Below are positions 12,876-32,653 of a DNA stretch of 64,000 nucleotides, piece after piece (position 1 is the first letter of the stretch; each line of letters starts with the position of its first letter). A program made the position numbers and the translations under genes. This stretch comes from Dyella halodurans (GTDB lineage: Bacteria > Pseudomonadota > Gammaproteobacteria > Xanthomonadales > Rhodanobacteraceae). The notes under the pieces are model-generated. The model saw only the letters and a program-made list of their open reading frames with translations. It did no database searches and was not told where the DNA came from. The stretch lies in assembly GCF_026283925.1 (NCBI RefSeq), contig NZ_JAPDPF010000002.1, positions 372,001-436,000 on the forward strand. The letters run 5' to 3'.

Positions 12876-12983
12876 AACCATGCTGGCGAAAAAATCGCCA
12901 CTCCGAGCAATTAAGCCGTCTGCTTGGACATCTGCCAAGCTTTGAGAATGATAAGAAGCAAGCCACGTTTCAGGGGGAGTGTG

Positions 12984-15200
12984 ATGTCCGATGGAAAGAT
13001 GATTGATCAGGAAGGAAATCGTTCTTTGGATCGCCCGCTCATTGCGTACGCTTTTCTTGCGCAAGCGACGCAGCAACCAGGAGATCTGATGAGCGGGCTA
13101 GCGCCCATATTCAAGCCGATTGCTAAACAGAAGAAAGGCGAGAATTTCCAGCCGGAAGAATTCGCGCACATGGTCGAGGATATATACGGAATTAAGCTGC
13201 ACCCGTGGGCGGCAGAGGATTTAGCGCCAAGGCTTGAGGCTTGCGGCATTCTCACGAAGATTAACCTCCTTGAATCTGGGCAGGCTGCAAGCTATGTCTA
13301 CGCAGAAGTAGAACAATCGTTTGACGAGGTTTCCGAGGCAGCCATTAGGGCAGTGCTGCGCGACTTTACTGAGTATGCGACGAAGATGCTAAGTGATCAC
13401 AAGATCACGCTTAGCGAGCAAGAGCTTGAGAAGGTCTTCCTGGATCATCTTGTCCTGACAGACTTCAATTCAATAAGGAGCCGCCCACAACAGTTGGCTG
13501 CCGAGCGAAAAAGCGAAAGGACCCTTTCTCTTCCGAAAAGCAAAGCAGTGGAGGACCAAGAAAATGAAAGCGCGCAGTTGGCCCGTCTGGATGTCATCTG
13601 TGCCTCATATATCTTGGAGGCCTTCACTAAAAATCGCGACGTCTATGAGCTTCTTGTCAAGATCGCGAGCGGCGCGTTGCTGGCGGAAGTTGTTCTGAAT
13701 GTTCAGAGCCCTTCGACAGGCATCAATCTACGAGCGTTGACTGTGATTCTTGATGCTCCACTCGTGATGTCCATCCTTGATCTGCGCGCGCCTGAGGCCA
13801 CCGAGTATGCCAGGGCGTTTGCAAATCAGCTGAAGTCCAATGGGGCGTCACTGAAGATTTTCAATCACTCAATAGACGAGATCGGCTACAACCTAAAAAG
13901 TGTTGTCGAAAACGTTTCAAATGGCGGAGGCCACGGTGCTACGGCAAGACGTTTGCGCTTCGAGAAGAATTTTCGCGTTTATCTAACCAGCATCCAGCAA
14001 GACATCCGATCCGCCCTTGATCGATTTGACATCAAGCCAATCGAAAGCCCGTCTTCTGCGATTTCGTTGCAGGAGCTCTCAAAAGACGAGGAGAATGAGT
14101 TTGGCTCGATGCTTGGTTTTTATCAGAATTGGCAAGCCCAAGCCCGGGACGCATCTTCCGTGGCAGGCACAATACGCCTTAGGCGAAAAGCTCACGCTCG
14201 ACTGAGCTCCTTTCAAAATGCACTCTATATCTTTGTCACGGAAAATACGCGGGTTGCAGACAAATCAGCCAAATTTGCAGTCACGAAGAAACTCATCATT
14301 GAGAACGAGGTTCCGCCGGCCTTGTCGGACCGCTTTCTTGCAGGCCTTCTCTGGGTTGTCTTTGGGGGCAAGACAGATGAGCTTACGCATCATCGATTGC
14401 TGGCCAACTGCGTCGCGGCGCTTGAGCCGCGGACAGATGTAACCGCCAAAGTGCAGCAATTCTTGAGCGAGCTCGATGAGCAGAAGGCAGCACACTTCAG
14501 AGCACTAATGACGGACGAGCGCGCGGGCCAGCACCTGATGCAGTTGACCTTAGGTGACGCTCTACTCGTTCACACCAGGGACGACGCATCTGACTTGCTG
14601 ATCGCCATCGAAAGTCAGATGGAGGCGAAGCATAGAGCTCGCTTCGAAGAAAGCGCCGCGGAGATTAAAGCTGCCGCTGACGCTCGAATCGTTGAAATTG
14701 AAAAGGAAAAGGCGGAAGAGGTGGCCGAGGCAAAATCCAGGCTCGCGCAAATGGAAAGGGCTGGCTTGCAAGCGGATATGGAGCTGCAATCCCTCAGGGA
14801 TCGCCAAACTGAAGAACAAGAACGAAGGAAGCAGGTCGAAGAGTCGGCCATGAACGGAAAGAGGGCGCTTCTTAGTGCGGCTGTGAAGGCGGCCATCCGT
14901 TCCGCGGGACGCACACGAATCCTTATCTATTTGGCGTTCTTTGCGTTAATGATCTTCATCGCGATTGCTCCCATCTTCGCTGACACAAATAAGCTCAAAT
15001 GGATGGCCACTTTAGTTGCCGTTATCACAATCATCGTTACCGCCACCGGCTTCTGGGAGCTACCCAGGATCCTGTTCGAGCGCGTTGTTGCGTCCAGGCA
15101 ATCCGCCGTGTTTAACGAGAAGATTGCGGAGTACGCGTTACAGGGGCACGAGGATTTGTTCGTAATCGACTGGAACTCCGGTGAGGTCGTTCCGAAGTAG
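12984..15200 (+). CDS. Large PIN-like, coiled-coil, double-TM protein of unknown function
   Basis: A 738-residue protein starting at the ATG after a GGGGGAG ribosome site (12973-12979); upstream in-frame starts lack one. A helical N-terminal region is followed by a stretch that looks like a PIN nuclease fold: VILDAPLV with Asp257, IDEIG with Glu299, VTENTR (Glu420) and ALSDRFLAGLLW with Asp449. A charged coiled coil follows (about 545-625), then two transmembrane helices (about 646-666 and 674-691) and a short tail. Composition is more AT-rich than the backbone. It stands just after the second attC but has no attC of its own. It may be a membrane-tethered RNase in phage defence or stress response (inference); the PIN assignment is by pattern only. 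Confidence 0.8.
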   Translation: MSDGKMIDQEGNRSLDRPLIAYAFLAQATQQPGDLMSGLAPIFKPIAKQKKGENFQPEEFAHMVEDIYGIKLHPWAAEDLAPRLEACGILTKINLLESGQAASYVYAEVEQSFDEVSEAAIRAVLRDFTEYATKMLSDHKITLSEQELEKVFLDHLVLTDFNSIRSRPQQLAAERKSERTLSLPKSKAVEDQENESAQLARLDVICASYILEAFTKNRDVYELLVKIASGALLAEVVLNVQSPSTGINLRALTVILDAPLVMSILDLRAPEATEYARAFANQLKSNGASLKIFNHSIDEIGYNLKSVVENVSNGGGHGATARRLRFEKNFRVYLTSIQQDIRSALDRFDIKPIESPSSAISLQELSKDEENEFGSMLGFYQNWQAQARDASSVAGTIRLRRKAHARLSSFQNALYIFVTENTRVADKSAKFAVTKKLIIENEVPPALSDRFLAGLLWVVFGGKTDELTHHRLLANCVAALEPRTDVTAKVQQFLSELDEQKAAHFRALMTDERAGQHLMQLTLGDALLVHTRDDASDLLIAIESQMEAKHRARFEESAAEIKAAADARIVEIEKEKAEEVAEAKSRLAQMERAGLQADMELQSLRDRQTEEQERRKQVEESAMNGKRALLSAAVKAAIRSAGRTRILIYLAFFALMIFIAIAPIFADTNKLKWMATLVAVITIIVTATGFWELPRILFERVVASRQSAVFNEKIAEYALQGHEDLFVIDWNSGEVVPK

Positions 15201-15230
15201 TTGATTGAAGATAGGTGTAGTACGGAGAGA

Positions 15231-15530
15231 TGCCTCAGGCGTTTGAGCTTGTGCGCGGCCGACATCACCGCAATACGCTGGGTCACGGTCGACAGCTTCA
15301 GTGGCCTGAGCTTCGCCTTGAGACCCGCAGCGACCAGCGCCTGGTCGGCGGCGAGCGGCAACTCACTGACTAGGCCAACCTTGTTTCTGCGCTGGATGTG
15401 GTCGACCAGGAACTGGATGACCACGGCCTCGGCTACCGGCAACGTCAGCTCAAGCCCGAAGCGGGCCTGATCCAACCGGCCCAATAGCGCAGAACGGCGG
15501 CACGAGGCTGGAGGCGGACGTGGTGAGGGC
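15231..15530 (-). pseudogene. Tyrosine recombinase (integrase) N-terminal fragment, frameshifted
   Basis: On the minus strand, one frame reads PRAAVLRYWAGW and a neighbouring frame continues ARFGLELTLPVAEAVVIQFL ... VSELPLAADQALVAAG ... LSTVTQRIAVMSAAHKL. This is the SAM-like core-binding domain of a site-specific integrase family common in Xanthomonas and Burkholderia. A frameshift separates the two parts, and resemblance stops near 15231 beside the end of the PIN-like gene. The catalytic domain is missing. It is a scar of an integrated element. Confidence 0.7.
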
Positions 15531-15700
15531 ACATGAGGCGCGGGCGCCCCAAGGGTCTAGCTGTTTGGGTTTCGGTAGTTAAATTCCGGGAACATCACCT
15601 CAACGCGCTAAACCCCTGGGGCCCAGCGCACTCAAACTCTGAGAGTCGCACTTATCCGCCAGTCCTGTAGAAGAAACGCAACACTCCTGGAACTTCCGGC

Positions 15701-15728
15701 TTTTGACATAATATACATTATGCGAAAT
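15701..15728. other. dif-like XerC/XerD recombination site
   Basis: A 28-bp site: arms 15701-15711 and 15718-15728 around the 6-base centre TATACA. Read on the minus strand it is ATTTCGCATAA, TGTATA, TTATGTCAAAA. The left arm and centre equal the Xanthomonas/Pseudomonas-type dif pattern known from the literature; the XerD arm differs from TTATGTTAAAT at its outer part. It is either the chromosomal dif or an attachment site left by a Xer-exploiting phage. An inovirus Zot remnant lies 5 kb downstream. No second copy was seen in the window. Confidence 0.75.
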
Positions 15729-15809
15729 TAAATGGGCAGGTCGTCGCAGGTGGCCTCGGCCGTTCAAGGCCTTAGCTAGGCTGATTCACCATGTGCAAGG
15801 AATGCGCAT

Positions 15810-16280
15810 ATGCGTCCCCGCCAACGCTTGAGCTGGGTCTATGACGACCATCGCCAAGAATTCACAACGCCGGCCGGTCGCGTGATCTCACTCCATGAGA
15901 TCGCGGCCATGATGCAGGATCAACTCATCTGTCACCACGATTTCCAGGGTGCATGGATCGGCTGGCGGATGCGCCAGAACCGACTCATACCCCCATCGGC
16001 AAACTTCCGCAGCAGCCAAATCACGCCGAACACGCTGCGTGCCTTCAATCGCTGGCTGGCGAGCTTTGATGGCTACCAGTACCAACTATCACCGGACACG
16101 TCCCAACTGGAACAAGCCGGTCAGCCTCAAACCGAAACAACTTCCCGTTCTCGCACTCAATCCGAGGCAGACCCACCGCAGGCGGCTCCCTCGGTGGCTC
16201 AATCGCAGCAGCACGAACCACGACGACGCGCTGAGGTGATTGAACTGGCTGCCTATCGGCAGCGCGCCCGCGCTCGATGA
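15810..16280 (+). CDS. Phage-related hypothetical protein
   Basis: A 156-residue protein. The N-terminal half is well ordered: RLSWVYDDHRQEFTTPAGRV, then FQGAWIGWRMRQNRLIPPS and TLRAFNRWLASF. This pattern recalls small proteins of Xanthomonas filamentous phages and prophages (DUF3653-like WxGWR motif; inference). The middle is a Gln/Thr/Ser-rich linker, and the tail AEVIELAAYRQRAR is a charged helix. A weak AAGG ribosome site precedes the ATG. It starts 80 bases after the dif-like site. Its last 236 bases overlap a minus-strand gene, so one of the two may be spurious. Confidence 0.6.
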   Translation: MRPRQRLSWVYDDHRQEFTTPAGRVISLHEIAAMMQDQLICHHDFQGAWIGWRMRQNRLIPPSANFRSSQITPNTLRAFNRWLASFDGYQYQLSPDTSQLEQAGQPQTETTSRSRTQSEADPPQAAPSVAQSQQHEPRRRAEVIELAAYRQRARAR

Positions 16281-16356
16281 TGTAGCGGTATAGCGGCACC
16301 GTTGCCAGCACGAGCATGGCAGCCAATGCGTAGTAGCCCACGTCTTTCCCGGTCAT
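16045..16356 (-). CDS. Small single-TM protein, unknown function
   Basis: A 103-residue protein starting at an ATG with a strong AGGGAGG ribosome site. One transmembrane helix (YYALAAMLVLATVPLYRYI, about residues 8-27), a Pro/Arg-rich linker, then a small Cys-containing tail domain (IECENGKLFRF ... VPVGTCPVI) whose two cysteines could pair outside the cytoplasm. Resembles short prophage-borne membrane proteins. It overlaps the 3' half of the plus-strand gene at 15810-16280 in antisense. The ribosome site lies in a small hairpin whose pattern recurs before the next minus-strand gene. Confidence 0.6.
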   Translation of the reverse strand: MTGKDVGYYALAAMLVLATVPLYRYIIERGRAADRQPVQSPQRVVVVRAAAIEPPREPPAVGLPRIECENGKLFRFEADRLVPVGTCPVIVGTGSHQSSPASD

Positions 16357-16361
16357 AAATC

Positions 16362-16376
16362 CTCCCTGTCCGGGAG
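16362..16376 (-). promoter_or_regulatory. RBS-containing hairpin in 5' leader
   Basis: Stem CTCCC/GGGAG around a 5-base loop covers the ribosome site of the gene starting at 16356. A related, longer hairpin precedes the gene at 16988. It could mask the ribosome site or simply be a shared leader. Confidence 0.35.
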
Positions 16377-16439
16377 AGCCTATCAAAAGCGGGTTTCCCG
16401 GGGATGGGTGAGGAACGTAGGTCTAACCATGACGACATG

Positions 16440-16500
16440 GCCCGCAGGCGCGGGCGATTTGTAGATGACGGCTATCAGGGCGTGTCCGTCATGCGGGAAG
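16440..16500 (+). repeat. Dispersed hairpin repeat, copy 1
   Basis: Begins with an inverted repeat GCCCGC-AGGC-GCGGGC, followed by a conserved stretch ending in GTCCGTCATGCGGGA. A second copy lies at 18563-18632 in the same orientation. Mosaic similarity runs over about 60 bases with one insertion of roughly 7 bases. The two copies bracket four minus-strand genes. Confidence 0.5.
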
Positions 16501-16517
16501 CAGATCAAATGCCTTAA

Positions 16518-16988
16518 TTACTTACTCGCGCACTCACTGACCTTAATTCTTTCCTTTAAGGAATTGTATTTATTAACTAGCTCTTCCGGGCCATGCTGCT
16601 CAGCACTGTAGGCGTCGGCAGTAAAAAACATATACGGCGTCTCATAAAAAGAATTAGACAGAAAATGCGCGACGTCGAATTTGGAGCTGTAGATGTCGTG
16701 ATCAAAGCCCGCATTTAATACACTAAAATCTATCGCCGAGGCGGCGCTTTCTTTTGCCCTGTCATAATGGCAATTCCTTAGATGATTTAAGATCTGCATA
16801 TCTTGTAAGGCTTGCGAGAAATAGACGTTGTATTCGTTCTTTTTGCCGAACACGAAGCCCGACCAAAATGCGGACCAATACATCATCCACCCGAAAGCCA
16901 CGATCAATACCAGATAAAAGACGCGCTTAATTATCACTTCCCCTCCCCCGTGCATCCCGATGCGAATTGAGTCAGCCTTCCCAGGCAT
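16518..16988 (-). CDS. Small membrane-anchored protein, unknown function
   Basis: A 156-residue protein with one N-terminal transmembrane helix (FYLVLIVAFGWMMYWSAFWSG, about 24-45) and a soluble, mostly helical C-terminal domain rich in Tyr, Phe and Asn. The ATG at 16988 follows an AGGGAGG ribosome site inside an 8-bp hairpin. A GTG 17 codons further in also has a strong purine-rich site, so the start is uncertain. Markedly AT-rich compared with the backbone, which suggests transfer. No family recognised. Confidence 0.6.
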   Translation of the reverse strand: MPGKADSIRIGMHGGGEVIIKRVFYLVLIVAFGWMMYWSAFWSGFVFGKKNEYNVYFSQALQDMQILNHLRNCHYDRAKESAASAIDFSVLNAGFDHDIYSSKFDVAHFLSNSFYETPYMFFTADAYSAEQHGPEELVNKYNSLKERIKVSECASK

Positions 16989-16992
16989 AGGA

Positions 16993-17011
16993 CCTCCCTG
17001 TGTCAGGGAGG
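16993..17011 (-). promoter_or_regulatory. RBS-containing hairpin in 5' leader
   Basis: Perfect 8-bp stem CCTCCCTG/CAGGGAGG with a 3-base loop just upstream of the ATG at 16988. It includes the ribosome site and parallels the leader of the gene starting at 16356. Possible translational control or terminator-like element. Confidence 0.4.
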
Positions 17012-17046
17012 CTACCAAATGCAGCCTTGGCGAGCGGCGATCTCTA

Positions 17047-18006
17047 CTAGGCCGCCAGACGGTGCTCGTAGTGTAGCCGGGCCCGATCATCGAGAATCGC
17101 GTAGAGCGTGGCCAGATTATTCGGGTCTGGACTGAGCCAAGCATCGACATGCTCGGGCTTGATCGGGACGATGCGTCGGTCGTGGCCAGCGGCCAAAACT
17201 TCGGACGGCGGCTCGTCGGTGATGGCGGCAAACGAGAATAGGTCGGTTCTGTGGTCTGCACCTTTTGAGATGCTCCAAAGGCAGGCGACCAGCATCTCCT
17301 GGGGCGGCTTCGGATCGAATTCGAGAACGACGTTCTCTTCCTTTTCGCCGGGTTGCAGCTCCCTGCCCTCTAGTTTGTGACGTGACACATTTTCGTAGAA
17401 GCGGGTCACGATGATGATGCCGTGGTGGTGACCGAACAGCTTACCCCATGACTTTTCGAGGTTGTCGCGGCGGGCGTTGTACGTACCTGGGTATTGGCGT
17501 TCGGTCTTTTCATCTCAGCGTGGCAGGCGACACTGATACCGCATGGGCACGACGATGCGCTGCCCTTCCTTCTTGATCATCACTGGCGCCCACTCGCCCG
17601 GATAGATGCGTGAGTCCTTGTCGGCAGGTTCCGCGCGTGTCAGGTCGTGCTGAGCGGCCTTGAGCTTATTCGTGGCAATACGCTGGTCTTCGGCTGCCTT
17701 CTTGGTAGGCTTCGGGCCGGCGAGCACTCCCTCGGCTTTGGCCAGGCGCTCCTGTAGGGTGGCCACCTCTCTATAGAGTTTGTCGGCCAGGTCGAGGTCG
17801 CCCTCGGCTACCAGCTTGGCCAGCTCGAAGCCCTCCTCGCCCTGGGGCTTCCGGAATGCCTCACGCATGGCCTTGGGGATCTTGGTCCAGCCGCCGTCTT
17901 TGCGCTTCCCCCAGAACAGCTCGACGAAGCGCTTGATGCTGATGACTGCGCCCCATTCGCGGACGAACTTGTCGTAATCGGCTTCGATCTGGGCGGAATA
18001 GCACAT
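17047..18006 (-). pseudogene. SOS-response-associated peptidase (SRAP/YedK/HMCES) with in-frame stop
   Basis: Reading from 18006, the protein starts MCYSAQIEADY; the Cys right after Met is the catalytic residue that crosslinks abasic sites in ssDNA. The frame hits TGA at 17515-17517 after MRYQCRLPR, then continues in the same frame: PGTYNARRDNLE, FYENVSRH, FAAITDEPP, and AGHDRRIVPIKPEHVDAWL with the conserved Asn, Glu and His. The stop probably replaces a Trp codon (TGG to TGA). Without it the protein would be about 319 residues, normal for this branch. A GTG at 17407-17409 could restart only the C-terminal part. Likely a recent nonsense mutation; a sequencing error is the alternative. The family is often phage- or island-borne. 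Confidence 0.85.
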
Positions 18007-18058
18007 GGCCAGGTGCTCGGCTGACGGGCGGATGGCCCACGCGTGGATGAGAATAACG

Positions 18059-18361
18059 CTAGTACGCGCGACGGTCTTGTGGATGTTTCCACAGAGGAAT
18101 GGTGCGCCAGTGACATCGAGTCCAACGCTCAAGCTGCGCCTTGGCTTTCCAGAGGCTAGCGTACTTTGCGTAAAACTCCGGGCCGTCGCTCAGGCGGCCT
18201 TTCGGCCAGACGCAGGCGTACCACTGGCCCTGAATCGATTGAGCCACCAGGGCGTACTGAATGGTCTTTACCGGGTCGACCACGTGACCGTACCACCTCG
18301 CTTCCAGGGTCACCCCGGATACCTTGGGCTGGTCCCATTGGATGACGACGTGATCGCTCAT
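18059..18361 (-). CDS. Hypothetical protein upstream of SRAP
   Basis: A 100-residue protein starting MSDHVVIQWDQPK, with a beta-rich middle (WYGHVVDPVKTIQYALVAQS, QWYACVWPKG) and a basic aromatic tail. No transmembrane segment. It lies 52 bases upstream of the SRAP pseudogene on the same strand, so the two may have been one transcription unit. The ribosome site is weak and an upstream start is possible. Family not recognised. Confidence 0.5.
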   Translation of the reverse strand: MSDHVVIQWDQPKVSGVTLEARWYGHVVDPVKTIQYALVAQSIQGQWYACVWPKGRLSDGPEFYAKYASLWKAKAQLERWTRCHWRTIPLWKHPQDRRAY

Positions 18362-18562
18362 TCTTGGCACGGTACGCCGGAGCAGTCTCAACGGGCGCGA
18401 CCTGGGCAAAGGCACTTCGCGTCACCAGCCAAATACTACGTATTTGCCCGGCGACACTCAGGTAGATCACAGGCGGCCACCCGATGGGATGGCCTGATGA
18501 GCAACGCCCAAGAGCGGGTTTTGCAGGGGTAGTTGCGGGAGTTGAGCCAGGAGTGGCGGTGT

Positions 18563-18632
18563 AGCCCGCGGGAGCGGGCTATATGCAGGTGGCGGCTTCT
18601 ACGACAGCAAAAGGGCGTATCCGTCCTGCGGA
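18563..18632 (+). repeat. Dispersed hairpin repeat, copy 2
   Basis: Starts with AGCCCGC-GGGA-GCGGGCT, an inverted repeat, followed by a stretch related to 16440-16500 (shared blocks AGGGCGT, TCCGTC and TGCGG). It lies in the leader of the gene at 18736. Repeats of this GCCCGC-GCGGGC form may act as REP-like elements or phage intergenic hairpins. Confidence 0.5.
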
Positions 18633-18735
18633 CAACAGAAGCCTTGGGACTTCCTACAACCCTCCCTTGGCAGGCGTATCATCACTCAATTGCGTCGCAA
18701 CCCTGCCATCCTCACGACCCAAAAAGGGACAAGTC

Positions 18736-19686
18736 ATGAACCTGCGATGGACGCCGATATTTGGAGAATTTAGCGGCATTGATAGCAACGTCCTTACCTT
18801 CCACGGCAAGCCCACAAACTGGATCGACGCGGCAACAGGCAAGGAGCGCGATGATGGGGGCGCGGCCGGCTTCGCACTCTGCGATGCGCAATTTAGCGGC
18901 GGCACGATCTCGTTGAAGGCTATCTTCGAGGCGCCTACCTCACCTGCCAGCGTGTCCATAGCGCTTGCCGTCGATGTGGGAGCCTCAAAGTCCATAACGA
19001 TAGGCCTTGGGATTGCGGGGGCGCTCGTCGCCGCTGCAAGCAACGACGGGCGCGAATGGCGTCCAATACAGGGAGCCATGGTGGGCGTTGCGGAAACGAT
19101 CAAAGCGAACAAAGAATACGAGCTTTCCGTGACCATTATTGGGACTCGTGTACTCGTCAAAGTCAATGGCGCCCAGATGGTTGATTTTGTCTTGCCTAAT
19201 CCAGTAGCCGGGCTGCCCGTAGGCATGAATGTTCTCTCGAAATCGAAAGTAACCATCAGCGACTATGAGGTAAAGAGCGAAAAGCCGAAGGCTTTTATCG
19301 TCATGCAATTCTCTACTCCCTATAACGAGCTCTATAAGGAGGTGATTAAGAAAGTTTGTCTCGAATTTGATGTTGAGCCGGTGCGCGTAGATGAAATCTA
19401 CTCACAGGGCCTGATCATTCAGGACATCACGAGGCAGCTTACGGAAGCCGCGGTCGTCATTGCTGAGATTACTCCGACAAATGCGAATGTGTATTACGAA
19501 GTAGGTTATGCACACGCGATCAACAAACCGACGATTCTGATCGCCGATAAATCAATCAAGCTCCCCTTTGATGTTTCACCATTTCGCGTACTTATGTACG
19601 AGAACACGATCGACGGCAAAGGACGCGTCGAAGAAGGTCTTCGTCGACATCTGCAAGCAGTCTTTCGGCCAGGCCAACCAATCTAG
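18736..19686 (+). CDS. Lectin-like domain fused to nucleoside 2-deoxyribosyltransferase/TIR-like domain
   Basis: The ATG at 18736 follows AAAGGGAC; a longer frame upstream overlaps the hairpin repeat and is rejected. The product has 316 residues. Residues 1-180 form a beta-sandwich resembling concanavalin-like/DUF1080 domains (GGAAGFALCDAQFSGG, ISDYEV). Residues 185-316 resemble nucleoside 2-deoxyribosyltransferase-like domains: FIVMQFSTPYNELY, VDEIYSQGLIIQDI, AEITPTNANVYYEVGYAHA with the likely catalytic Glu255, and LPFDVSPFRV. Domains of this superfamily (related to TIR) act as NAD or nucleotide hydrolases in antiviral systems. A sensor plus effector design is plausible, sited in an island of phage debris. 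No partner gene is obvious. Confidence 0.8.
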   Translation: MNLRWTPIFGEFSGIDSNVLTFHGKPTNWIDAATGKERDDGGAAGFALCDAQFSGGTISLKAIFEAPTSPASVSIALAVDVGASKSITIGLGIAGALVAAASNDGREWRPIQGAMVGVAETIKANKEYELSVTIIGTRVLVKVNGAQMVDFVLPNPVAGLPVGMNVLSKSKVTISDYEVKSEKPKAFIVMQFSTPYNELYKEVIKKVCLEFDVEPVRVDEIYSQGLIIQDITRQLTEAAVVIAEITPTNANVYYEVGYAHAINKPTILIADKSIKLPFDVSPFRVLMYENTIDGKGRVEEGLRRHLQAVFRPGQPI

Positions 19687-23151: not shown

Positions 23152-24306
23152 ATGGCAACCACCAAGAGCAGTGATCGAAAGCTCAACAAACCGCCGCTCT
23201 CTATCGACGAAGTCGTTCTGCGAGACAATATTGCCGCCACCAAGAAGCCGCCGGCGGATACGATCGCGCTATTGACGACGCGGCGCTTGATGTTGAGCGG
23301 CCCCAAAGATCTTCCTAAGGAGCTCCAAAAGGCACTGAGTGACATGAAGCGGGCCGAGCCCGGACTATCCCTGCCATTGCCGCCGTCGACCATCATCGGC
23401 CTGCCCGGCAACACTGGTGAACGAGTCCCTCACAAGGCGCTTGCGGCAAGCGCGGGCACATCTTCGAGCGGCCAGCCATTCAAGCCCGATTGGGCGCCCT
23501 TGGTGTACCACCCCAAGATTGGAGCCAAGCCCAGACAGAAATATCTTCGAGGCTTGGGTGGGCGGCGAATCGTGCCGACGGATAACCAGAGTTTCATCTA
23601 TGGCTCGGACGATCGGCGCGTGTTCTATCCGTCCGGTTATCCGTGGCGCTGTATCGGCAGGGTTGATGTGTACCCGAATGCCGATGCAGACAATTTCTCG
23701 AGCTGGGGTAGCGGCGTGCTCATCGGAGACCGACTTGTGCTCACCGCCGGTCATGTTCCGCCGGTCAACCCCGCGCCGGGCACGTGGAAGATGCGCTTCA
23801 CGGCCGGTATGTACAACGGCTCTGCCGTCGATGGCCCGGGCGCTGTCTCCTATGTATCCGACTTCAAGGGATACACCGGCGGGCTCTCTGGCGTTGATTA
23901 CGCGGTACTCCGGCTGTACGAACCACTTGGAACTCACATGGGTTACTTTGGTTGGAAAACCTATGACGACAGCTGGACCGGCGGGGACTACTGGTGGTTG
24001 GCAGGATACCCATTCGACATTGCAGCAGAAAACAGCCCATCCTATCAGGCGGGGATCGCGGTCCTTGACCAGGACTCAGACCAAGGCGGCCTGGAGCTTG
24101 AGCATCATGGCGATACTGCCAGCGGCGATTCCGGCGGCCCATTCTGGGGTTTCTGGGACGAAGGTCCGTACGTCGTCGGTACGGTAAGCGGCCACGAACA
24201 CGTCAGCGGCCCTTCCTGGGCTGGTGGCGAGGACAACAACATCGCTGCGGGAGGAAGTCCGCTGTCGAACTTACTCGCTTGGGCACGTAGCAACTGGCCG
24301 GCCTGA
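23152..24306 (+). CDS. V8-like/trypsin-like serine protease
   Basis: A 384-residue protease of the chymotrypsin fold (glutamyl endopeptidase-like). Catalytic triad: His201 in LTAGHVPP, Asp249 in GVDYAVLRL and Ser327 in SGDSGGPFWG. An N-terminal region of about 150 residues probably acts as propeptide. The first 40 residues are charged and lack a Sec signal, which is odd for this family. AAGGAG precedes the ATG. It converges with the terpene genes, ending one base before the stop of the isoprenoid-synthase-like gene. Likely acts on extracellular protein if exported by another route. Confidence 0.88.
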   Translation: MATTKSSDRKLNKPPLSIDEVVLRDNIAATKKPPADTIALLTTRRLMLSGPKDLPKELQKALSDMKRAEPGLSLPLPPSTIIGLPGNTGERVPHKALAASAGTSSSGQPFKPDWAPLVYHPKIGAKPRQKYLRGLGGRRIVPTDNQSFIYGSDDRRVFYPSGYPWRCIGRVDVYPNADADNFSSWGSGVLIGDRLVLTAGHVPPVNPAPGTWKMRFTAGMYNGSAVDGPGAVSYVSDFKGYTGGLSGVDYAVLRLYEPLGTHMGYFGWKTYDDSWTGGDYWWLAGYPFDIAAENSPSYQAGIAVLDQDSDQGGLELEHHGDTASGDSGGPFWGFWDEGPYVVGTVSGHEHVSGPSWAGGEDNNIAAGGSPLSNLLAWARSNWPA

Positions 24307-24307: not shown

Positions 24308-25324
24308 TCAGTCTGGGAACTCCTCCAGCCATGCGTGGACGATGGCCTGGAAGGACCGCACGAACGCTGAGCCATAATCGTCGGCGATCTCGCGGAGCTG
24401 GAAGAGCCGGAGCGCTAGGCGGCGCGCTTCGGCTTCCGCGAGACCACCGTCCACAACGCGTCGCAAGGCATCTTCAATGTTCCGGGGCACATCATAACTG
24501 GCACGAGCCAGCCACCAAAGTGGTCGGCTCCAATTGCCGGCCACCCAGTCTTCGTGAATGTCAGCCAAGTCGTCTGCTATCCAGATTGCCTCGCCGGCAA
24601 TGCGTGCTGAGGCGACTGTCGCTGCGCGACGCCCGTCACCTCTATTCGGAGCAGCCAATAAGGCCAGACGGGACAACGTGGCTGTGGGCAGCGCACTCTT
24701 GCGCCGAAGAGCGCGCCAAACGGCAAGCGTTGGACTCGAATGGTCGCGCAGGTTAGCGCCAGACTCACACTCGGCAAGGTGCATGGCGTGCAGTTGTGCT
24801 CCGAGTGCTGCATGCCCATGGCGGTCGCCGCCAAGTCGCCGGGACCGAGCAAGGAACTCCACAATCAACGCCATAAGCGCATCGATTGCGACATCTCCAC
24901 TAAGTTTCATCTTCGGTGGCATTTCCGACAGATGTGCCGCGAGAAAGGTTGGAGTGACGTACTGGCTCAGGAGCACTGCGCGGTCAGAGAAGCGATCCAG
25001 AATCCGATCGAACAGTACAATGCCAAGGTTAAAGAGCGCGCCAGCATGGCAGACCTGTGGTCGTAGCGACGCGGGCGTTCCGGCTAGAAAGGCGAGGCCT
25101 TCGGCTTGCTGCCACCCGTAGCCAAGGATTCGGGTGAGCGCGGGCTCGGTTAAATCGAGAGACCGTGCCCCCTCTTTGAGAAGATCTGCGTCACCAAGCG
25201 CTCTTGGTAGCAAACGCTGGCCGGCTGCGTAGGCGCCCTGACGGACTCGTAGCTCGCGATGCGGTGGCAGCAGGACGCCCGCGCCGTCGAGGATCTCACT
25301 GACCACTTGTCGCAGCTCACTCAT
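24308..25324 (-). CDS. Class I isoprenoid-synthase-like protein of a terpene pair
   Basis: Start chosen at the ATG that overlaps the upstream stop (ATGA, 25321-25324), implying translational coupling; 338 residues. All-helical. Two Asp-rich motifs sit where class I terpene or prenyl synthases bind Mg-diphosphate: VLFDRILDRFSD about one third into the chain, and IWIADDLADIHEDW in the C-terminal third. The second resembles the second Asp-rich motif of prenyl or squalene synthase-type enzymes. Length fits a single alpha domain. The upstream partner is a class II cyclase-like gene, so this one probably ionises a cyclised prenyl diphosphate or supplies the precursor. Assignment is by motif only. 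Confidence 0.65.
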   Translation of the reverse strand: MSELRQVVSEILDGAGVLLPPHRELRVRQGAYAAGQRLLPRALGDADLLKEGARSLDLTEPALTRILGYGWQQAEGLAFLAGTPASLRPQVCHAGALFNLGIVLFDRILDRFSDRAVLLSQYVTPTFLAAHLSEMPPKMKLSGDVAIDALMALIVEFLARSRRLGGDRHGHAALGAQLHAMHLAECESGANLRDHSSPTLAVWRALRRKSALPTATLSRLALLAAPNRGDGRRAATVASARIAGEAIWIADDLADIHEDWVAGNWSRPLWWLARASYDVPRNIEDALRRVVDGGLAEAEARRLALRLFQLREIADDYGSAFVRSFQAIVHAWLEEFPD

Positions 25325-26313
25325 AGTGCACGCTCGCTGCGCGCCAACGCCGCCACGCACAAAGCCGAGGTGAAAAGCCTGTTGTGGTCATTGGCAATCA
25401 CTCCTGTGCCCAGGCTATGAACGCGCCATGGGTGGTAGTCGTCGGGTTTGGTGACCCATGGCGGCGGGATGCGCATCTCTGCATGGCTTGGCCAGAAGCC
25501 GTCAACCTCTCGCCGGGCGCTCAGGCTTTGGGACGCTCGTTGCCGGCACGTTCTATGGCCACCCGCGATGGCAAGTATCGATAGGGACGCGGCGGTCGCA
25601 AAAACTGATTTGGGTCGGCACCAAGACCCGTCGCGTCTCTGCCCGCTCTGGACCCAATCGGCTGCGCGCCATACCGCGTTCATGTCGCCCATCGCAGCGG
25701 CTAGCTCAACGGCTTGCAGCGTCGAAAAGTGCCGAGATGCCCACCAGTACGCAGGCCACGATCCATCACTCCGCTGCCGCTCGCTGACATAGCGCCAAGC
25801 CGCCTTCGCTTCGGCCGCATGCTCCTTTCCGAGCGAAGCAAATGCAGCCCCCGCAATGGCCGTCACTTCGAGATGCGCGCGACACCATCCATCAAGTGGA
25901 ATATGCGCCCCCAACCGCATATAGCGAAGTATCGGGCGATGCTTCGCGTAAGTACAAACCCCACCAGATTCGGGGTGCTGATGTCGCACGAGGCACGCCG
26001 CCGCACGCGAGATGACTGCGCTTCGGCAGCCGATCGCAACCAGGAAGAGAAGCACGCATGCTGTCGTGTCGGCGTCTGTGGGGACATCCGCGTGATATCC
26101 CCAGCCCCCATCATCATGCTGGCGATCAATCAAGGCAGTGGCGGTAGGGACCAGAAGATCACGACTACAGCCTGCCCGGAGAAGCTGCAGACCAATAAAT
26201 GACGAAGGCCAGTCAATGCCTTCGCCAGCGAGGGTGCGAAATTCCCGCCACAGGCCGTCGCTGTTACGACGGCTCGCTAAGAGTGGAGCTACTTCACTAA
26301 CTAGAGAGCTCAC
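25321..26313 (-). CDS. Compact class II terpene cyclase-like protein (DxDTT motif)
   Basis: A 330-residue protein from a GTG with a GAGG site 7 bases upstream. It is built of prenyltransferase/squalene-hopene-cyclase-type repeats: DGLWREF, DDGGWGYH, SDGSWPAYWW and RDGSWCRP. The segment PTDADTTACVLL aligns with the PDVDDTA acid motif of squalene-hopene cyclases and reads DxDTT (Asp80, Asp82), a variant reported in drimane-type class II cyclases. Known class II enzymes have two barrels and about 500 residues or more; this is close to one barrel. It overlaps the class I-like gene by 4 bases. Product and substrate unknown. Confidence 0.7.
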   Translation of the reverse strand: MSSLVSEVAPLLASRRNSDGLWREFRTLAGEGIDWPSSFIGLQLLRAGCSRDLLVPTATALIDRQHDDGGWGYHADVPTDADTTACVLLFLVAIGCRSAVISRAAACLVRHQHPESGGVCTYAKHRPILRYMRLGAHIPLDGWCRAHLEVTAIAGAAFASLGKEHAAEAKAAWRYVSERQRSDGSWPAYWWASRHFSTLQAVELAAAMGDMNAVWRAADWVQSGQRRDGSWCRPKSVFATAASLSILAIAGGHRTCRQRASQSLSARREVDGFWPSHAEMRIPPPWVTKPDDYHPWRVHSLGTGVIANDHNRLFTSALCVAALARSERAL

Positions 26314-26698: not shown

Positions 26699-27544
26699 CT
26701 AGGATGGCTTGCCACCCGTGCCCCGGATGCCATCCAGTTTCTCCAGCAAGCTAAACCAGAACGGTGCGCCAAACAGCGTCGCGGTCGCCGTGATGATCCA
26801 ACCTGGTAACGCCCAAGCCATCGCCTCGTAGAAGATGTCTGGCTTACCTTCCTTCAATGCCCACAGGCGCCCCCAGCCCACCGGCAGCTCGTTGATATTC
26901 CCGAGCGCCTGGGCGACATCCTTGGGTTCAGACCATGCAGGCAAGCCATGGCCGACGAGCGCGGCATGCCATAGCGTCGTCATGACTTGATGGGCGTCGA
27001 TGTTGAACGCTATGGCTATCAACAGCCCGAAGATGAACGTCCAAAGCTGCGCCTTCCTCTTGTAGGCACCCGACACGCGATCCATAGCGCCGTCGAACCA
27101 CTGTGCCACCGCCGACTCGAAACGACTGACGTCCCCGGATGCCCTGTCGAACAGTCCGAGCAGACAGTCCCTAAGCTGTTGGTCACCGATGTCCGCAATG
27201 GTCTGCCGAATGGCAACCGGATCCACGCTACCTGCCCGCAGCTTGTCAACCAGCGCTTGCGCGAAGTCCATTGGCTTGATGTAGGACGGCGTCACGCGCG
27301 ATGACAGCTCGTCGATGCTCCTGGCGGCCCCGTTGTCACGCGGGTTGACCAGGGCATGATTGTAGATCCCCAGCACCAAAGGCAGTTGCCGATTGAGCAA
27401 ATCCTGAATCCCCTGAAGCAGGGTCGACGCGCGCCATCTGAGCATCGAAGCAACTGCCTCCTGCAGGCTGCTGGCAATCAAGGCGATTGAGCCACAGCAC
27501 ACGATCAACCCGACGGCAACTTCGAGTACAGCGCTTCCGAACAT
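26699..27544 (-). CDS. Multi-pass membrane protein, unknown function
   Basis: A 281-residue protein with an N-terminal hydrophobic helix (VLEVAVGLIVCCGSIALIAS), a long cytoplasmic or periplasmic helical middle, and C-terminal transmembrane segments (LWTFIFGLLIAIAFNI near 165-182, and WIITATATLFGAPFWFSLL near 245-265). Composition is regular and the ORF is intact. Family not recognised; similar proteins are annotated as conserved hypothetical membrane proteins. It is downstream of the phosphoesterase on the same strand, with a gap of 219 bases, so co-transcription is uncertain. Confidence 0.7.
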   Translation of the reverse strand: MFGSAVLEVAVGLIVCCGSIALIASSLQEAVASMLRWRASTLLQGIQDLLNRQLPLVLGIYNHALVNPRDNGAARSIDELSSRVTPSYIKPMDFAQALVDKLRAGSVDPVAIRQTIADIGDQQLRDCLLGLFDRASGDVSRFESAVAQWFDGAMDRVSGAYKRKAQLWTFIFGLLIAIAFNIDAHQVMTTLWHAALVGHGLPAWSEPKDVAQALGNINELPVGWGRLWALKEGKPDIFYEAMAWALPGWIITATATLFGAPFWFSLLEKLDGIRGTGGKPS

Positions 27545-27763
27545 AACCCCTCCGTTGTCATGATCATTTCAAGCACGGTGAATCGCTCTGATGACTTGAA
27601 TCACGGGGGGCGAACCGAAGAACGGCCGCCCCGGTCTGGGCGCCGCGCGAAACAGGCGCCTTGCGATTGTCACCCCGCACAATGCACGAACGCATGCTTG
27701 TCTTCCGTGCGCGTGGTCGCTTCCTTGTCGTCGTGAGCACGAAACTCCCAGCCTGCCTCTAGT

Positions 27764-29245
27764 TTACTTCACCAGGATTCTTGACCGATGCTGCTTGAGG
27801 CGCGTCGTCACTTGGTTGATATAGTCAAGGCTCTCCCCGACGGTTTTCACGGAAATATCGGGAAGTACGACCTGTGCGAGCGCATGCGAAGCGGCAGGAG
27901 GCGCACTGGCGTGCCTCAGGCCAATATCGATGCTTGCGGCTATGCGGGTGAAGCCGGCGAGTGCGGGATCAGGCGTGTCGTTGACATCGGGAGGGACTGG
28001 GGCTGCCGTGTCCGTAGCCTCCCCTATCGCGTTGAGCGTCTTTGGCGCGTCGTCGCCACGCGAAACATTGCGCGTGAGCAGGGGCATGAGTGATGTCGCA
28101 TTGGCATCTCGAGCCGTAAGCGATGGAAGGCCGAAAAGAGCACAGACCGTACGCAAGATGGAAGTGTGATCGCATACGGCATTTTCCACCGCCGGGTCCA
28201 CCCACGGCGATACGAGGACTGCCGGAACACGGACGCCGTAGCGTTGAAAATCGAAGCTATACGGATTCTCTGCACGACTGGAGTTCAAATCCTGGTCGCC
28301 CGGCGCCGTGCACTGAACCGGCGCAACATGGTCGAAGAACCCGCCGTGTTCGTCATAGGTGACAACGAGCAAGGAGTCCTCCCAGACGGGTGAATTCCTG
28401 ATCGTCTCGTAGACGTATTTGATCAGTGCCTCGCCACTGGACAAGCGGCTGCGTGGATGCTGGGAATTGCCGAAGAACATATTTGAGGCGAGATTGTAGT
28501 CGGGCTCGATGAAGGCATAACCCACATCGTAGTTGCCTGAGTTGAGTTCGGCGGCGAAAGGATCATTCGAGTCGCCGGGGCGTATCGAGACAAAATTGCT
28601 GCTTCCCGCGATAAACGGCATCACGTGACGACCAACGGCGAGCACTTGTGGCATGTCGTCCCCGTGATACACACGCCATGGCACCTTATGCGTATCGAGA
28701 AGGTCGTATATCGAGCCGTTCTGGAACTCGAAGGCGGCAGACGACATGGTGACGCCGGATAGCGACGTGAGACCGCTCGGGCTGTTGGTCAAGCCACCGG
28801 AGGAGCCGGCATGCACGAAAAAGCGGTTTGGCCAGGTGGGGCCAGGCATCGATGAAAACCATCGATTGAACACAACGAACGAGCTTGCAAGTTGCTGCAG
28901 GATCGGCGCCCCGCCATCCGCAAAACAATCCATGACCATGGCGCCGCCGTCGCCCTGGCTCTGCACGAAGCCCTGCATGTTCGGCGGTGCACTGGATATT
29001 CCACTCGCGCCCACGCCCGGTGCTACCGAGTAGAGCTGCTGCCAAACGTTTTCAAACTCGTGAGCAGGATCCACGGCTGGCCGATCCATCGCCCTATTAC
29101 TCACTGGCACGGGATCCGGAGTGCACCCGGGTCGATTGGGGTTGCTCATGTCAGGTGTCACGCCGTCGACGCCCGGCAGGTAGCCAAGGATGTGATCGAA
29201 CGACCGATTCTCCAGCATGAGCACGAAAACGTGTTTTACGGGCAC
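27764..29245 (-). CDS. Phosphoesterase family protein (phospholipase C / acid phosphatase-like)
   Basis: A 493-residue alkaline-phosphatase-superfamily protein (PF04185 type). The N-terminal FVLMLENRSFDHILGYLPG carries the metal-binding Glu-Asn and Asp-His, and VVTYDEHGGFFDHVAP the second metal site. Bacterial relatives cleave phosphatidylcholine or other phosphoesters, usually after Tat or Sec export, yet this chain starts MPVKHVFVL directly at the catalytic domain and shows no signal. The C-terminal 90 residues are variable. It follows the sedolisin gene by 42 bases on the same strand, so the two are probably co-transcribed. Confidence 0.9.
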   Translation of the reverse strand: MPVKHVFVLMLENRSFDHILGYLPGVDGVTPDMSNPNRPGCTPDPVPVSNRAMDRPAVDPAHEFENVWQQLYSVAPGVGASGISSAPPNMQGFVQSQGDGGAMVMDCFADGGAPILQQLASSFVVFNRWFSSMPGPTWPNRFFVHAGSSGGLTNSPSGLTSLSGVTMSSAAFEFQNGSIYDLLDTHKVPWRVYHGDDMPQVLAVGRHVMPFIAGSSNFVSIRPGDSNDPFAAELNSGNYDVGYAFIEPDYNLASNMFFGNSQHPRSRLSSGEALIKYVYETIRNSPVWEDSLLVVTYDEHGGFFDHVAPVQCTAPGDQDLNSSRAENPYSFDFQRYGVRVPAVLVSPWVDPAVENAVCDHTSILRTVCALFGLPSLTARDANATSLMPLLTRNVSRGDDAPKTLNAIGEATDTAAPVPPDVNDTPDPALAGFTRIAASIDIGLRHASAPPAASHALAQVVLPDISVKTVGESLDYINQVTTRLKQHRSRILVK

Positions 29246-29287
29246 GCGAGGCTCCTAATGCCAGGATCTGGCCGACGAGTTCCAGGA

Positions 29288-30910
29288 CTAAGACAGCGCA
29301 GTCAACAAGCTCGTGCCAATGGGAGTGCCCCACCCCGATACCGCGTCATAGCCCTGGCCGGCGCTATATCCCTGGCCGGGCTGCGGGCTGGACGCGTTCT
29401 GGCCGACGGTGATGTCGTGACATGCCGTAACGCCAAGGGATGGGTTGCCGGCCTGGCTGCCATACAGCAATGGTGTAAGGAATTGTGGCGGCTTATGGCT
29501 TGGCAAGGCACTCTGAATGCGCGCAAGCAAGGCGGCCCATAGCGGTGTCGACGCGCTCGTCCCGCCGCTGGGGCTGGGCTGGCCGAGAAAGATCAGGTCG
29601 TAGTACGGCGGACCCGCGAGTGCCGCCACATCGGGTATGACGCGCCCAGGGAGGCTGCCGTTATTGATCGAGTTGACGCTAACGTTCTGCCAGGACGGTC
29701 GCTCGAAGTAGATGCTGACTCCACCACCGGTCGCACCGCCTCCGTCACTGGTGCGACGACCGGGCGACTCCCACCACACTTCCTCGGTTGCCTGCGTACT
29801 CGAGCCCACGAGCATCGTGCCGCCCACGCTCAGCGTGAACGGGCTTGAGCTCGGAAAATCGACGTGGGCGCGGCCGTCGGCAATTTCATCACCCGAGCCA
29901 TCATCGCCGGCGGCTATGCAAACCGTTATCCCAAGTAGCGCAGCAGCCTGCAGGCGATCATTGATGGCCGCGCGCGCCGCCGCGCTCCAACTTGGATCAT
30001 CCTCCGGCATGCCCCAGCTTACGGATAGCGCCACCGGGAGGCCGGCCCCATTCGCGGTCACTTTGTTCAGCAAGTCGACCCACCCTTTCTGGGTGAACGG
30101 CGCGAAATACACGTCGATACTCGCACCAGGACACAGGCCGGCGACGATTTGCACGTCCATCAACACTTCGCCCGAGGAGTCCAATTCCGCCGTCTGCTTG
30201 GCCTTCGGGAGCGCCTTGATCTGTGCCAGCGTGAGTGCCTCTTTGCCGACTGGAATGACGGTGACTTGCGGTATCGGACGGCCGAACTTGTTGCAATAGG
30301 CGGAGACGTCGTCGGGAAAGTAGCCGCCGTCGAATTCGGCAATGGCGATGCGTTGGCCTGCGGCATCGCCATCTGGGAAGGCGTAGCGTGTTTCGAGATC
30401 GGAAGGTCCCAGGGGCGCAGGTGCACCGACGGCACGCGCACCGATCTTGGGTTTACGCCGTGCCACGCGGCGCTCATCCAGGCCGAAAACGCCGGTGACA
30501 ATATCCTTGAGTTCGGACGGCACGTGGATCACACCCTCGCGTCCGCGATAGCGACCCTGCGTAGCGCTTTCATAGAGACCGAGCTTGAGTCCAAAGGCCG
30601 CCTCCATGGCGGCAACGGTGCCACTGACCCGCATGCTACGACCGGCCAGCGATATATCTTCGACCTGCAGGTTCAACGACGTGAGCACTTGCGCCACTTT
30701 GTCCGCATCCGCCTTGGCAGAGGCGTACTTTCCCTCGAATTCGGCCAGGCTCAAGGGCTTTGCGGGTAAGTCGTTGGCACCCGGCAGGGCGGGCCCGCGC
30801 AGACCAATGGTTACCTCGACCCGCGCCTGTTGATCCGCATCGCCAACGCGCTTGGCCGTGGCGTTCGGCGGGCGCTCGCTACCAGGAAGCTCGACATAGG
30901 ACGTCGCCAT
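29288..30910 (-). CDS. Sedolisin/kumamolisin-type S53 serine-carboxyl peptidase
   Basis: A 540-residue S53 peptidase. Residues about 1-160 are the pro-kumamolisin activation domain. The catalytic domain contains Glu248 and Asp252 in SSGEVLMD, the oxyanion Asp in AAGDDGSG near 336, and the nucleophile Ser452 in SGGTSASTP. The C-terminal calcium site is in HDITVG and YDAVSGWGTP. These enzymes are usually secreted and work at acid pH; no signal peptide is visible at MATSYVELPG. Heads a probable two-gene unit with the phosphoesterase. Confidence 0.92.
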   Translation of the reverse strand: MATSYVELPGSERPPNATAKRVGDADQQARVEVTIGLRGPALPGANDLPAKPLSLAEFEGKYASAKADADKVAQVLTSLNLQVEDISLAGRSMRVSGTVAAMEAAFGLKLGLYESATQGRYRGREGVIHVPSELKDIVTGVFGLDERRVARRKPKIGARAVGAPAPLGPSDLETRYAFPDGDAAGQRIAIAEFDGGYFPDDVSAYCNKFGRPIPQVTVIPVGKEALTLAQIKALPKAKQTAELDSSGEVLMDVQIVAGLCPGASIDVYFAPFTQKGWVDLLNKVTANGAGLPVALSVSWGMPEDDPSWSAAARAAINDRLQAAALLGITVCIAAGDDGSGDEIADGRAHVDFPSSSPFTLSVGGTMLVGSSTQATEEVWWESPGRRTSDGGGATGGGVSIYFERPSWQNVSVNSINNGSLPGRVIPDVAALAGPPYYDLIFLGQPSPSGGTSASTPLWAALLARIQSALPSHKPPQFLTPLLYGSQAGNPSLGVTACHDITVGQNASSPQPGQGYSAGQGYDAVSGWGTPIGTSLLTALS

Positions 30911-31273
30911 GGCCAGATCTCCCTATTGCGTCGCGTTGTCATCTGGTAAGCAGCAAGCCGCACCGCTTCAATTCGCGGGAACAATACGCTTGCGGACGTT
31001 CAGAACAATTGGACAGTGGTTGTAGGCCATTCGGGTGGCCGGTTTGCGGCCGCGCACAAGGCATGCGAAACCTTGTCAATCGATCGGTAGAGGGTCACAA
31101 GCGGCGCGTACCGATCGTCCCGAAGGATCACTGGAAATCCAAGCGTCCGCACGCCGAACTGAGCCAGGTCGAGGCACCCTAAATTGCGACCTCCAGGGGA
31201 CGCGGCGGGCCTATCATTCCGTGCAGGCGATGGTTACTGAACTCAGCGCGACCGATTGAGCTGGAGAATGGCC
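30911..31273. other. Divergent promoter region
   Basis: About 360 bases between the divergent sedolisin and FAD monooxygenase genes. Presumably carries both promoters; no clear motif or hairpin recognised. Confidence 0.45.
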
Positions 31274-32653
31274 ATGAATAGTCTGGGCGAGCATGCGATC
31301 GTGATCGGTGCCAGCGTGGGTGGGCTCCTGGCCGCACGCGCACTGTCGGATTTCTATAGCACGGTCACCGTGCTCGAACGCGATGCGTTCCCCGCGGCAG
31401 ATATTCCACGCAAGGGCGTACCACAGGGTCGCCATATCCATGGTCTGCTTGCGCGCGGAAGCACCGTACTCGAAGCGTTCTTTCCTGGCTATAACACCGA
31501 AGTCGTCGCGCAAAGCGGCGGGTTGACCGGCGATGTCGTCAACGATGTGATCTGGATGGGGCGCAACGTCCGACTTGCCAACGGCAAGAGCGACCTGATC
31601 GGCTTGCTTGCAAGTCGTCCCGTGCTCGAGGGCCACCTGCGCCGACGGCTTCTACAGTTGCCCAACGTTCGCGCCATGGAACATTGCGCTGTGCAGAGCC
31701 TCGCCACCACCCCTGATAATCAGAACGTGACCGGAGTGCGCGCATGTGTCGAGGGCAACCCTGAAGAGACGATCGACGCGGACCTCGTCGTCGATGCGAC
31801 CGGGCGCGGCTCATCCAGTGCGAGGTGGCTTGAAAAGCTCGGGTACCAGGCGCCGGCAGACCAGAAGGTCCATATCGGCATCTCCTACATGACACGTACC
31901 TACCGACGTCGGCCCACTGATCTTGGCGGCAAGCTCGGCGTCGTCGTCGTCGGTAGCGAGCCAAACTGGCGGAACGGCGCCATGCTCGCGCAGGAGGGCG
32001 ATAGCTGGATCGTTAGTGCCGGCGGCTTTCTTGGCGATGACGCGCCCGACGACGAGCAAGGCTTTCTCGCATTTCTGGCAACGCTGCCAACCATGGAGAT
32101 TCACGACGTTGTCGCCCACGCAGAGCCGCTAACCGAATTCACTCGTTACGGCTACCCAGCCAGCCATCGACGGCGTTACGAGAAGCTCGGGAGCTTCCCC
32201 GAAGGTTTCCTGGTTTTTGGTGATGCCTTCTGCAGCTTCAACCCAATCTACGGCCAGGGCATGACCGTCGCGGCGTTGGAGGCGCTGGTCCTGCAAGCAT
32301 GCCTACGCGCTGGTCCCCGTGATCTTGCGCGTCGATTCTTCAAGGAGGCCGCAGTCATCGTGGACATTCCCTGGGACATAGCGGTGGGAAGCGATCTCCG
32401 CAACCTGCAAGTCAAGGGCGCCCGCTCGCCCATGTTGCGTTTCATCAACTGGTACATCGGCAAGCTTCATCTTGCTGCGACGAAGGACAGCGCGCTGGCG
32501 ATCGCGTTTCTTAAGGTCGTCAACCTGATGATGCCGCCATCCTCACTGCTCAGCCCTGCCATCGCCAGGCGGGTCTGGCGTGGCAGTCGAGGGGCTGTGC
32601 CGTCGATAGCCTCGACTGCCATCGAGCCAGCGAAGCGGCATAGAGCACCGTGA
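31274..32653 (+). CDS. FAD-dependent monooxygenase/oxidoreductase
   Basis: Start at the ATG 7 bases after GGAG (31263-31266); 459 residues. The N-terminal Rossmann motif is IVIGASVGGLLAARAL, followed by VLERD with the ribose-binding Glu. The second FAD motif is VFGDAFCSFNPIYGQGM. This is the p-hydroxybenzoate-hydroxylase-like/squalene-epoxidase-like fold, cytoplasmic or loosely membrane-bound. Sequence in the middle (IGISYMTRTYRRRP) is typical of halogenase- or epoxidase-related hypothetical monooxygenases. Substrate unknown. Stands alone. Confidence 0.88.
   Translation: MNSLGEHAIVIGASVGGLLAARALSDFYSTVTVLERDAFPAADIPRKGVPQGRHIHGLLARGSTVLEAFFPGYNTEVVAQSGGLTGDVVNDVIWMGRNVRLANGKSDLIGLLASRPVLEGHLRRRLLQLPNVRAMEHCAVQSLATTPDNQNVTGVRACVEGNPEETIDADLVVDATGRGSSSARWLEKLGYQAPADQKVHIGISYMTRTYRRRPTDLGGKLGVVVVGSEPNWRNGAMLAQEGDSWIVSAGGFLGDDAPDDEQGFLAFLATLPTMEIHDVVAHAEPLTEFTRYGYPASHRRRYEKLGSFPEGFLVFGDAFCSFNPIYGQGMTVAALEALVLQACLRAGPRDLARRFFKEAAVIVDIPWDIAVGSDLRNLQVKGARSPMLRFINWYIGKLHLAATKDSALAIAFLKVVNLMMPPSSLLSPAIARRVWRGSRGAVPSIASTAIEPAKRHRAP

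Follow-up and report, generated by a model that had tools for sequence, protein, structure and literature searches.

An orphan gene overlapping a monodomain class II terpene cyclase-like gene: a candidate two-gene isoprenoid pathway

A gene for a class II terpene cyclase-like protein of single-barrel size shares an ATGA overlap with a gene for an orphan protein in the window, our term for the whole stretch of 64,000 nucleotides that was analyzed. The two genes form a real, intact, and unusual pair. We estimate that there is about an even chance that they constitute a two-gene isoprenoid (terpene or meroterpenoid) pathway, probably laterally acquired, in which a class I-like partner acts together with the class II cyclase. 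The cyclase alone belongs to a known group; the partner and the overlap are what set the pair apart. A search of titles and abstracts in the open-access literature returned no published description of such a cyclase-partner pair.

Layout of the overlapping gene pair

Both genes lie on the minus strand. The cyclase gene (26313-25321; 330 amino acids) begins with a GTG codon, with GAGG 7 bases upstream, and ends with TGA at 25323-25321. The partner gene (25324-24308; 338 amino acids) begins with ATG at 25324-25322 and encodes the acidic residues D106/D110/D114 and D251/D255/E258/D259. The stop codon of the cyclase gene and the start codon of the partner gene overlap as ATGA at 25321 to 25324 of the minus strand, as can be read directly in the sequence. 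The lengths and strand of both open reading frames (ORFs), like the overlap itself, are just as the original prediction had described them. An alternative partner start, an upstream GTG at 25360, would give a protein of 350 amino acids. A trypsin-like gene on the plus strand (23152-24306) is convergent with the pair.

Judged by homology, the cyclase gene is coding. As for the partner, a stop-free run of at least 330 codons in any frame occurred in 5 of 400 Markov-shuffled stretches of 2.7 kb (1.25%), and the partner's own frame ranked top of the six by a codon score trained on ten chosen reference genes of the window, the same genes that served for the comparison of third-position GC content (GC3). 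The GC contents at codon positions 1, 2, and 3 are 0.73, 0.50, and 0.62 in the partner and 0.66, 0.57, and 0.62 in the cyclase. The GC3 of 0.62 in both genes compares with 0.71 to 0.81 in the ten chosen reference genes and with 0.58 to 0.74 in six further genes of the window. This low GC3 is a hint, though no proof, of recent acquisition of the two genes. A further argument that the partner is coding is the rarity of its motif pair.

The class II cyclase and its relatives

The cyclase carries the acid motif PTDADTTACVLL, in which DADTT occupies residues 80 to 84 and so provides Asp80 and Asp82. The profile search that had been proposed as a check matched the protein to PF13243 (SQHop_cyclase_C, E = 3.3e-10) and PF13249 (SQHop_cyclase_N, E = 5.6e-8) in Pfam. 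Among PDB sequences, the best eight were chains of 346 to 367 residues that aligned over almost the entire protein, with E values of 1.4e-33 for 8paj, 1.6e-32 for 8pak, 2.2e-30 for 6ij1 (a prenylcyclase), and 2e-27 to 3.4e-26 for MstE (merosterolic acid synthase). The phmmer alignments to these proteins ran from residues 7 to 12 to residues 324 to 326, and the DADTT of the cyclase fell opposite DADTT in MstE and DADST in 8paj, 8pak, and 6ij1. The Pfam and PDB matches thus bear out the prediction of a class II cyclase, one barrel in size, with an acid motif containing Asp80 and Asp82. With its 330 residues, the protein is shorter than the at least 500 residues taken to mark a two-domain (β-γ) enzyme with a second barrel, and PDB chains of 514 to 539 residues (7xq4, 8zg0, and others) matched it only partially (E = 4e-10 to 4e-9). 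A two-row AlphaFold model of the cyclase was of low confidence (pLDDT 48, pTM 0.56). A Foldseek comparison of this low-confidence model listed five chains with E values of at most 0.001, all of them from 8pak, 8paj, and MstE (TM scores of 0.52 to 0.57; 26 to 31% identity), 8paj coming from Archangium gephyra and 8pak from Cystobacter fuscus.

The available excerpt of PMC9401909 calls MstE the first class II terpene cyclase of the monodomain kind, and the compact size of the present cyclase is therefore a known design. The original prediction had set a single-barrel-sized class II enzyme with a separate class I-like partner apart from the usual bacterial layouts; MstE, 8paj, 8pak, and 6ij1 are already near-full-length relatives, and their matches rule out a new architecture. 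The same prediction had likened the DxDTT motif to that of drimane-type cyclases, a comparison that turned out not to be specific: because the acid motif of MstE is also DADTT, DxDTT gives no pointer to drimane chemistry. HAD-fused drimenol synthases (AsDMS) have a DxDTT β domain in common with the cyclase, as far as the accessible part of PMC9128629 describes them, but the cyclase has only 330 residues, and where these synthases carry an N-terminal HAD domain with DDxxE, the Pfam scan detected no HAD family in it. These comparisons give good support to its placement among the MstE-type monodomain class II terpene cyclases, a known, if recent, group to which it adds another member, and it is predicted to act by proton-initiated polyene cyclization. 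With MstE, 8paj, 8pak, and 6ij1 it shares a near-full-length match, a single barrel, and a DADTT/DADST acid motif; it differs in its host, which is probably a relative of Dyella.

Searches with the cyclase retrieved 29 loci from a genome contig collection (best E = 2e-8) and 11 plasmid records, of which a Deinococcus record was best. When up to the 11 best candidates per genome were considered, 3 of 197 genomes of the family had a match, the host's own included, and the other two matches were weak and lay inside frames of 651 and 1,048 residues. At the same depth, no comparable gene was found in 17 other genomes of the genus, one weak hit lying inside a 1,048-residue frame. Among up to the five best candidates per genome, 398 genomes of the order yielded only the host's own gene at E ≤ 1e-5, and 396 genomes of the phylum of a Streptomyces genome yielded one match, in a 756-residue frame. 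In 299 genomes of the host's phylum (up to the seven best candidates per genome), there were three matches, again including the host's own, and one of them was a 320-residue frame that became locus L051. Five genomes behind matched loci gave two weak partial matches, and IMG/VR held no relatives of the cyclase.

Other monodomain-like genes have neighbors of their own. In L051 (404-2450), from a genome of the same phylum, the class II gene encodes 305 amino acids, matches MstE at E = 5.6e-11, and has no Pfam family at E ≤ 0.01. A 368-amino-acid ORF precedes it, a second arrangement of an orphan and a monodomain-like gene; this neighbor had no match in Pfam (E ≤ 0.01), PDB, or plasmids. L035 (11683-13926) lies on a Deinococcus plasmid; here a C-terminal extension is present on the monodomain-like cyclase, the next gene encodes a 235-amino-acid protein without a Pfam family, and by eye the extension and this next gene might be the halves of one ABBA-type prenyltransferase. 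The neighbors in L051 and L035 might both, again by eye, be ABBA-type prenyltransferases, a reading that no test bears out; neither has a Pfam family at E ≤ 0.01, and they do not match each other beyond chance. A partner shared with the present locus was rejected, since both neighbors gave only short chance matches to the 338-residue protein; the overlapping partner described here differs from the neighbors of these two monodomain-like genes. A further neighborhood of class I and class II genes is found on a Streptomyces plasmid (L037, 6227-8867), where a PF19086 class I terpene synthase (E = 1.2e-33) directly precedes a class II-like ORF of 584 amino acids (PF13243, E = 1.6e-10).

The orphan partner and its aspartate-rich motifs

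The partner contains DRILDRFSD at residues 106 to 114 and DDLADIHED at residues 251 to 259, and the two Asp-rich class I-like motifs previously claimed for it can both be read in its sequence. The starts of the two patterns are 141 residues apart, compared with 128, 139, and 138 in the host's own polyprenyl synthases and 154 in its squalene synthase. As a control set we used 910 distinct ORFs of at least 200 amino acids from the window and the collected loci, taken from all frames, coding or not, and rich in hopanoid loci; the pattern, [DN]xxxDxxED with DxxxD 100 to 180 residues upstream, was written after the partner had been seen. [DN]xxxDxxED occurred in 9 of the 910 ORFs, and 6 of these 9 also had DxxxD at the required distance. 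The six were the partner and five squalene/phytoene synthases identified by Pfam (PF00494, E = 2e-52 to 7e-70). As a measure of sensitivity, the motif pair caught 5 of the 9 ORFs found at E ≤ 2e-12 by a squalene-synthase profile that was itself built from those five. The second motif alone, in a narrower class IB-like form, matched the partner and one ORF without a Pfam family in locus L011. An earlier pattern (DxxxD or DDxxD plus DDxxD, 110 to 170 residues apart) matched 5 of 145 ORFs, namely, four copies of the partner gene and one ORF in locus L055.

According to the accessible parts of PMC11234867 and PMC7839719, six catalytic Asp residues and the motifs DYLDNLXD and DY(F,L,W)IDXXED characterize class IB terpene synthases. 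The partner fits the second motif at D, L, D, E, and D, with D replacing Y and A replacing I, and it fits the first at L-D-x-x-x-D, with the first Asp off by one residue. The comparison with FPP synthase that had been suggested for it is weak: the first motif is FDRILD, not HDDxxD, and E was 15 with a profile built from four polyprenyl synthases. Together with the lack of a PF00348 match, the same two observations led us to reject a plain FPP or GGPP synthase. As read from its sequence, the signature of the partner is closer to those of squalene/phytoene synthases and class IB synthases than to that of FPP synthase.

Searches of Pfam and NCBIfam with the partner returned nothing at E ≤ 10, PF00348, PF00494, and PF10776 included. 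The PDB gave only chance matches, the best being dodecin (E = 0.42); 72,556 plasmids gave nothing at E ≤ 0.01, and IMG/VR gave nothing. Among up to the 10 best candidates per genome in 197 genomes of the family, two genomes were matched, the host's own and G047, where the hit (E = 3e-4) lies in a frame that by eye encodes an aldehyde dehydrogenase and was taken as chance. Among up to the five best candidates per genome in 398 genomes of the phylum, two were again matched, the host's own and G386, where a weak hit of 42 residues (E = 4e-4) was left uncounted. In the searches made, the partner is an orphan, a status that refers to samples of genomes.

DUF2600 (PF10776) had no match in the host genome at E ≤ 10, although the same search gave hits in 3 of 14 control genomes, one of which was Bacillus subtilis. 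A home-made profile of five squalene synthases missed the partner (E = 79), as did that of the four polyprenyl synthases. Pairwise comparison with four class I proteins gave z values of 0.7, 2.0, 0.5, and 1.1, within or near the range of shuffled sequences, and the partner's scores were reached by 45, 12, 55, and 31 shuffles out of 200 each. Because the profile, pairwise, and DUF2600 results were all negative, we file the partner in no family. An AF2 single-sequence model was all-helical and unusable (pLDDT 41, pTM 0.26). On motif grounds, the partner may work like a class I enzyme.

Proposed pathway, competing explanations, and surroundings

In the pathway that we propose, the partner would be a Mg-dependent enzyme of class I fold whose two Asp-rich motifs hold a prenyl diphosphate between them; it would cleave off the diphosphate, and the chain would be either cyclized, as by class IB synthases, or joined to an acceptor, as by squalene/phytoene synthase-like prenyltransferases. 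The class II cyclase would then act from the other end of the chain, protonating its far end via Asp82 as reported for a relative. We infer the partner's step from its motifs, their spacing, and the gene overlap; sequence homology lends strong support to the class II step. The partner is placed first because of the analogy with YtpB followed by SqhC and because the substrate of MstE lacks a diphosphate. The substrate diphosphates would be supplied by the host's polyprenyl synthases. The order of steps, the chain length, and the product are likewise proposals, and the product may be a compound still undescribed, either a small cyclic terpene or a prenylated molecule.

The sesquarterpene pair YtpB/BalTS and SqhC resembles the present one in having a class I-like enzyme with motifs of the LDxxxD and Dx(F,L,W)xDxxED type beside a class II cyclase. 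SqhC is a two-barrel enzyme, whereas the cyclase here has one barrel, and the partner has no DUF2600/PF10776 match and a first motif only partly in register. That the class IB enzyme YtpB works with SqhC is stated in the accessible part of PMC7839719. A more speculative idea, to which we give well below even odds, is that the partner founds a new, noncanonical family of class I terpene synthases beyond classes IB to IF, coupled translationally to a monodomain class II cyclase; the two minimal enzymes would cyclize one polyprenyl chain from both ends, as a stripped-down counterpart of YtpB-SqhC, and give an undescribed skeleton. Should the partner prove to be a class I-fold enzyme missed by Pfam, NCBIfam, and PDB sequence searches, it would be another hidden terpene synthase, found in this case via an overlapping class II gene and not by structure mining. 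Being compact (two genes, ~2 kb) and apparently easy to express, the pair offers a direct test of whether a one-barrel class II cyclase and a class I enzyme share one chain.

A sub-case of the proposed pathway, and one that decides its chemistry, would have the partner, as a prenyltransferase of the squalene/phytoene synthase-like type, transfer the chain onto a small acceptor, after which the monodomain cyclase would cyclize the chain, like MstE. We regard this as possible, at roughly the level of the speculation above. MstE, the monodomain relative of known chemistry, is a meroterpenoid cyclase that uses a prenylated aromatic, geranylgeranyl dihydroxybenzoate (excerpt of PMC9401909), and the motif pair of the partner, DxxxD and [DN]xxxDxxED at class I spacing, is that of the squalene/phytoene synthases (PF00494), including phytoene-synthase-like prenyltransferases. 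Drimentine biosynthesis pairs a phytoene-synthase-like prenyltransferase with a terpene cyclase, although the cyclase there is a membrane protein of another family (accessible part of PMC6173783). However, neither PF00494 nor the home-made squalene-synthase profile matched the partner, and no acceptor-making gene was recognized among the 16 other proteins of the window scanned with Pfam.

It is rather doubtful that the partner is no isoprenoid enzyme at all but a helical protein of some unrelated kind, or a gene in decay, its Asp motifs being coincidental and the substrate of the cyclase being made elsewhere in the cell. The partner's want of a homologue and of profile support in the searches made and its unusable structure model (pLDDT 41) are consistent with this explanation, but the partner's reading frame is unbroken and overlaps that of the terpene cyclase, and the two-motif signature was confined, among 910 ORFs, to five squalene/phytoene synthases and the partner. 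Bacterial diterpene pathways usually employ a class II and a class I enzyme as separate proteins, which would suit a labdane-type order in which the class II enzyme first cyclizes a C15 or C20 prenyl diphosphate and the partner then ionizes the bicyclic diphosphate. DxDTT is also found in drimenol synthases that form a drimenyl diphosphate intermediate (accessible part of PMC9128629), but the near-full-length relatives of the cyclase are chains of 346 to 367 residues, MstE included, and class II chains of at least 514 residues match it only in part, which makes this order unlikely.

The 4.69-Mb host genome encodes a squalene synthase with 81% identity (306/379) to the Dyella sp. C11 enzyme, and the host is thus probably related to Dyella. 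The genome's polyprenyl synthase hits (PF00348), three above the cut-off plus a single site below, are all located outside the window, and no prenyl-diphosphate synthase was found within the window. The contig that contains the window also has a squalene synthase gene that adjoins a squalene-hopene cyclase gene, an arrangement that we read as a hopanoid locus. In locus L045 of the host (7840-10939), a polyprenyl synthase (PF00348) lies a few kilobases from the squalene-hopene cyclase gene, as do an apparent DXP reductoisomerase and an apparent ferredoxin-NADP reductase, both judged by eye.

The cyclase-partner locus itself is probably accessory and acquired. Of 20 genomes of the genus, only two, one of them the host's own, were found to have its upstream neighbor (26699-27544). 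The minus strand upstream of the pair (26699-30910) encodes a 281-amino-acid protein that has no Pfam family and looks, by eye, like a membrane protein; a phosphoesterase of 493 amino acids (PF04185, E = 4e-62); and a pro-kumamolisin/subtilase-type peptidase of 540 amino acids. About 5 kb from the pair, on the plus strand, lies a gene for an FAD-dependent oxidoreductase (31256-32653) with weak matches to DAO, FAD_binding_3, and squalene epoxidase, none of which reaches the curated cut-off; it is a possible, though unproven, tailoring enzyme. Another part of the window (11922-19686) has a lower G+C content (0.54 at 12001-16000) and encodes proteins of 758 and 284 amino acids without a Pfam family, together with weak matches to a DUF3653 phage protein and a nucleoside deoxyribosyltransferase, and may be an acquired or phage-like region.
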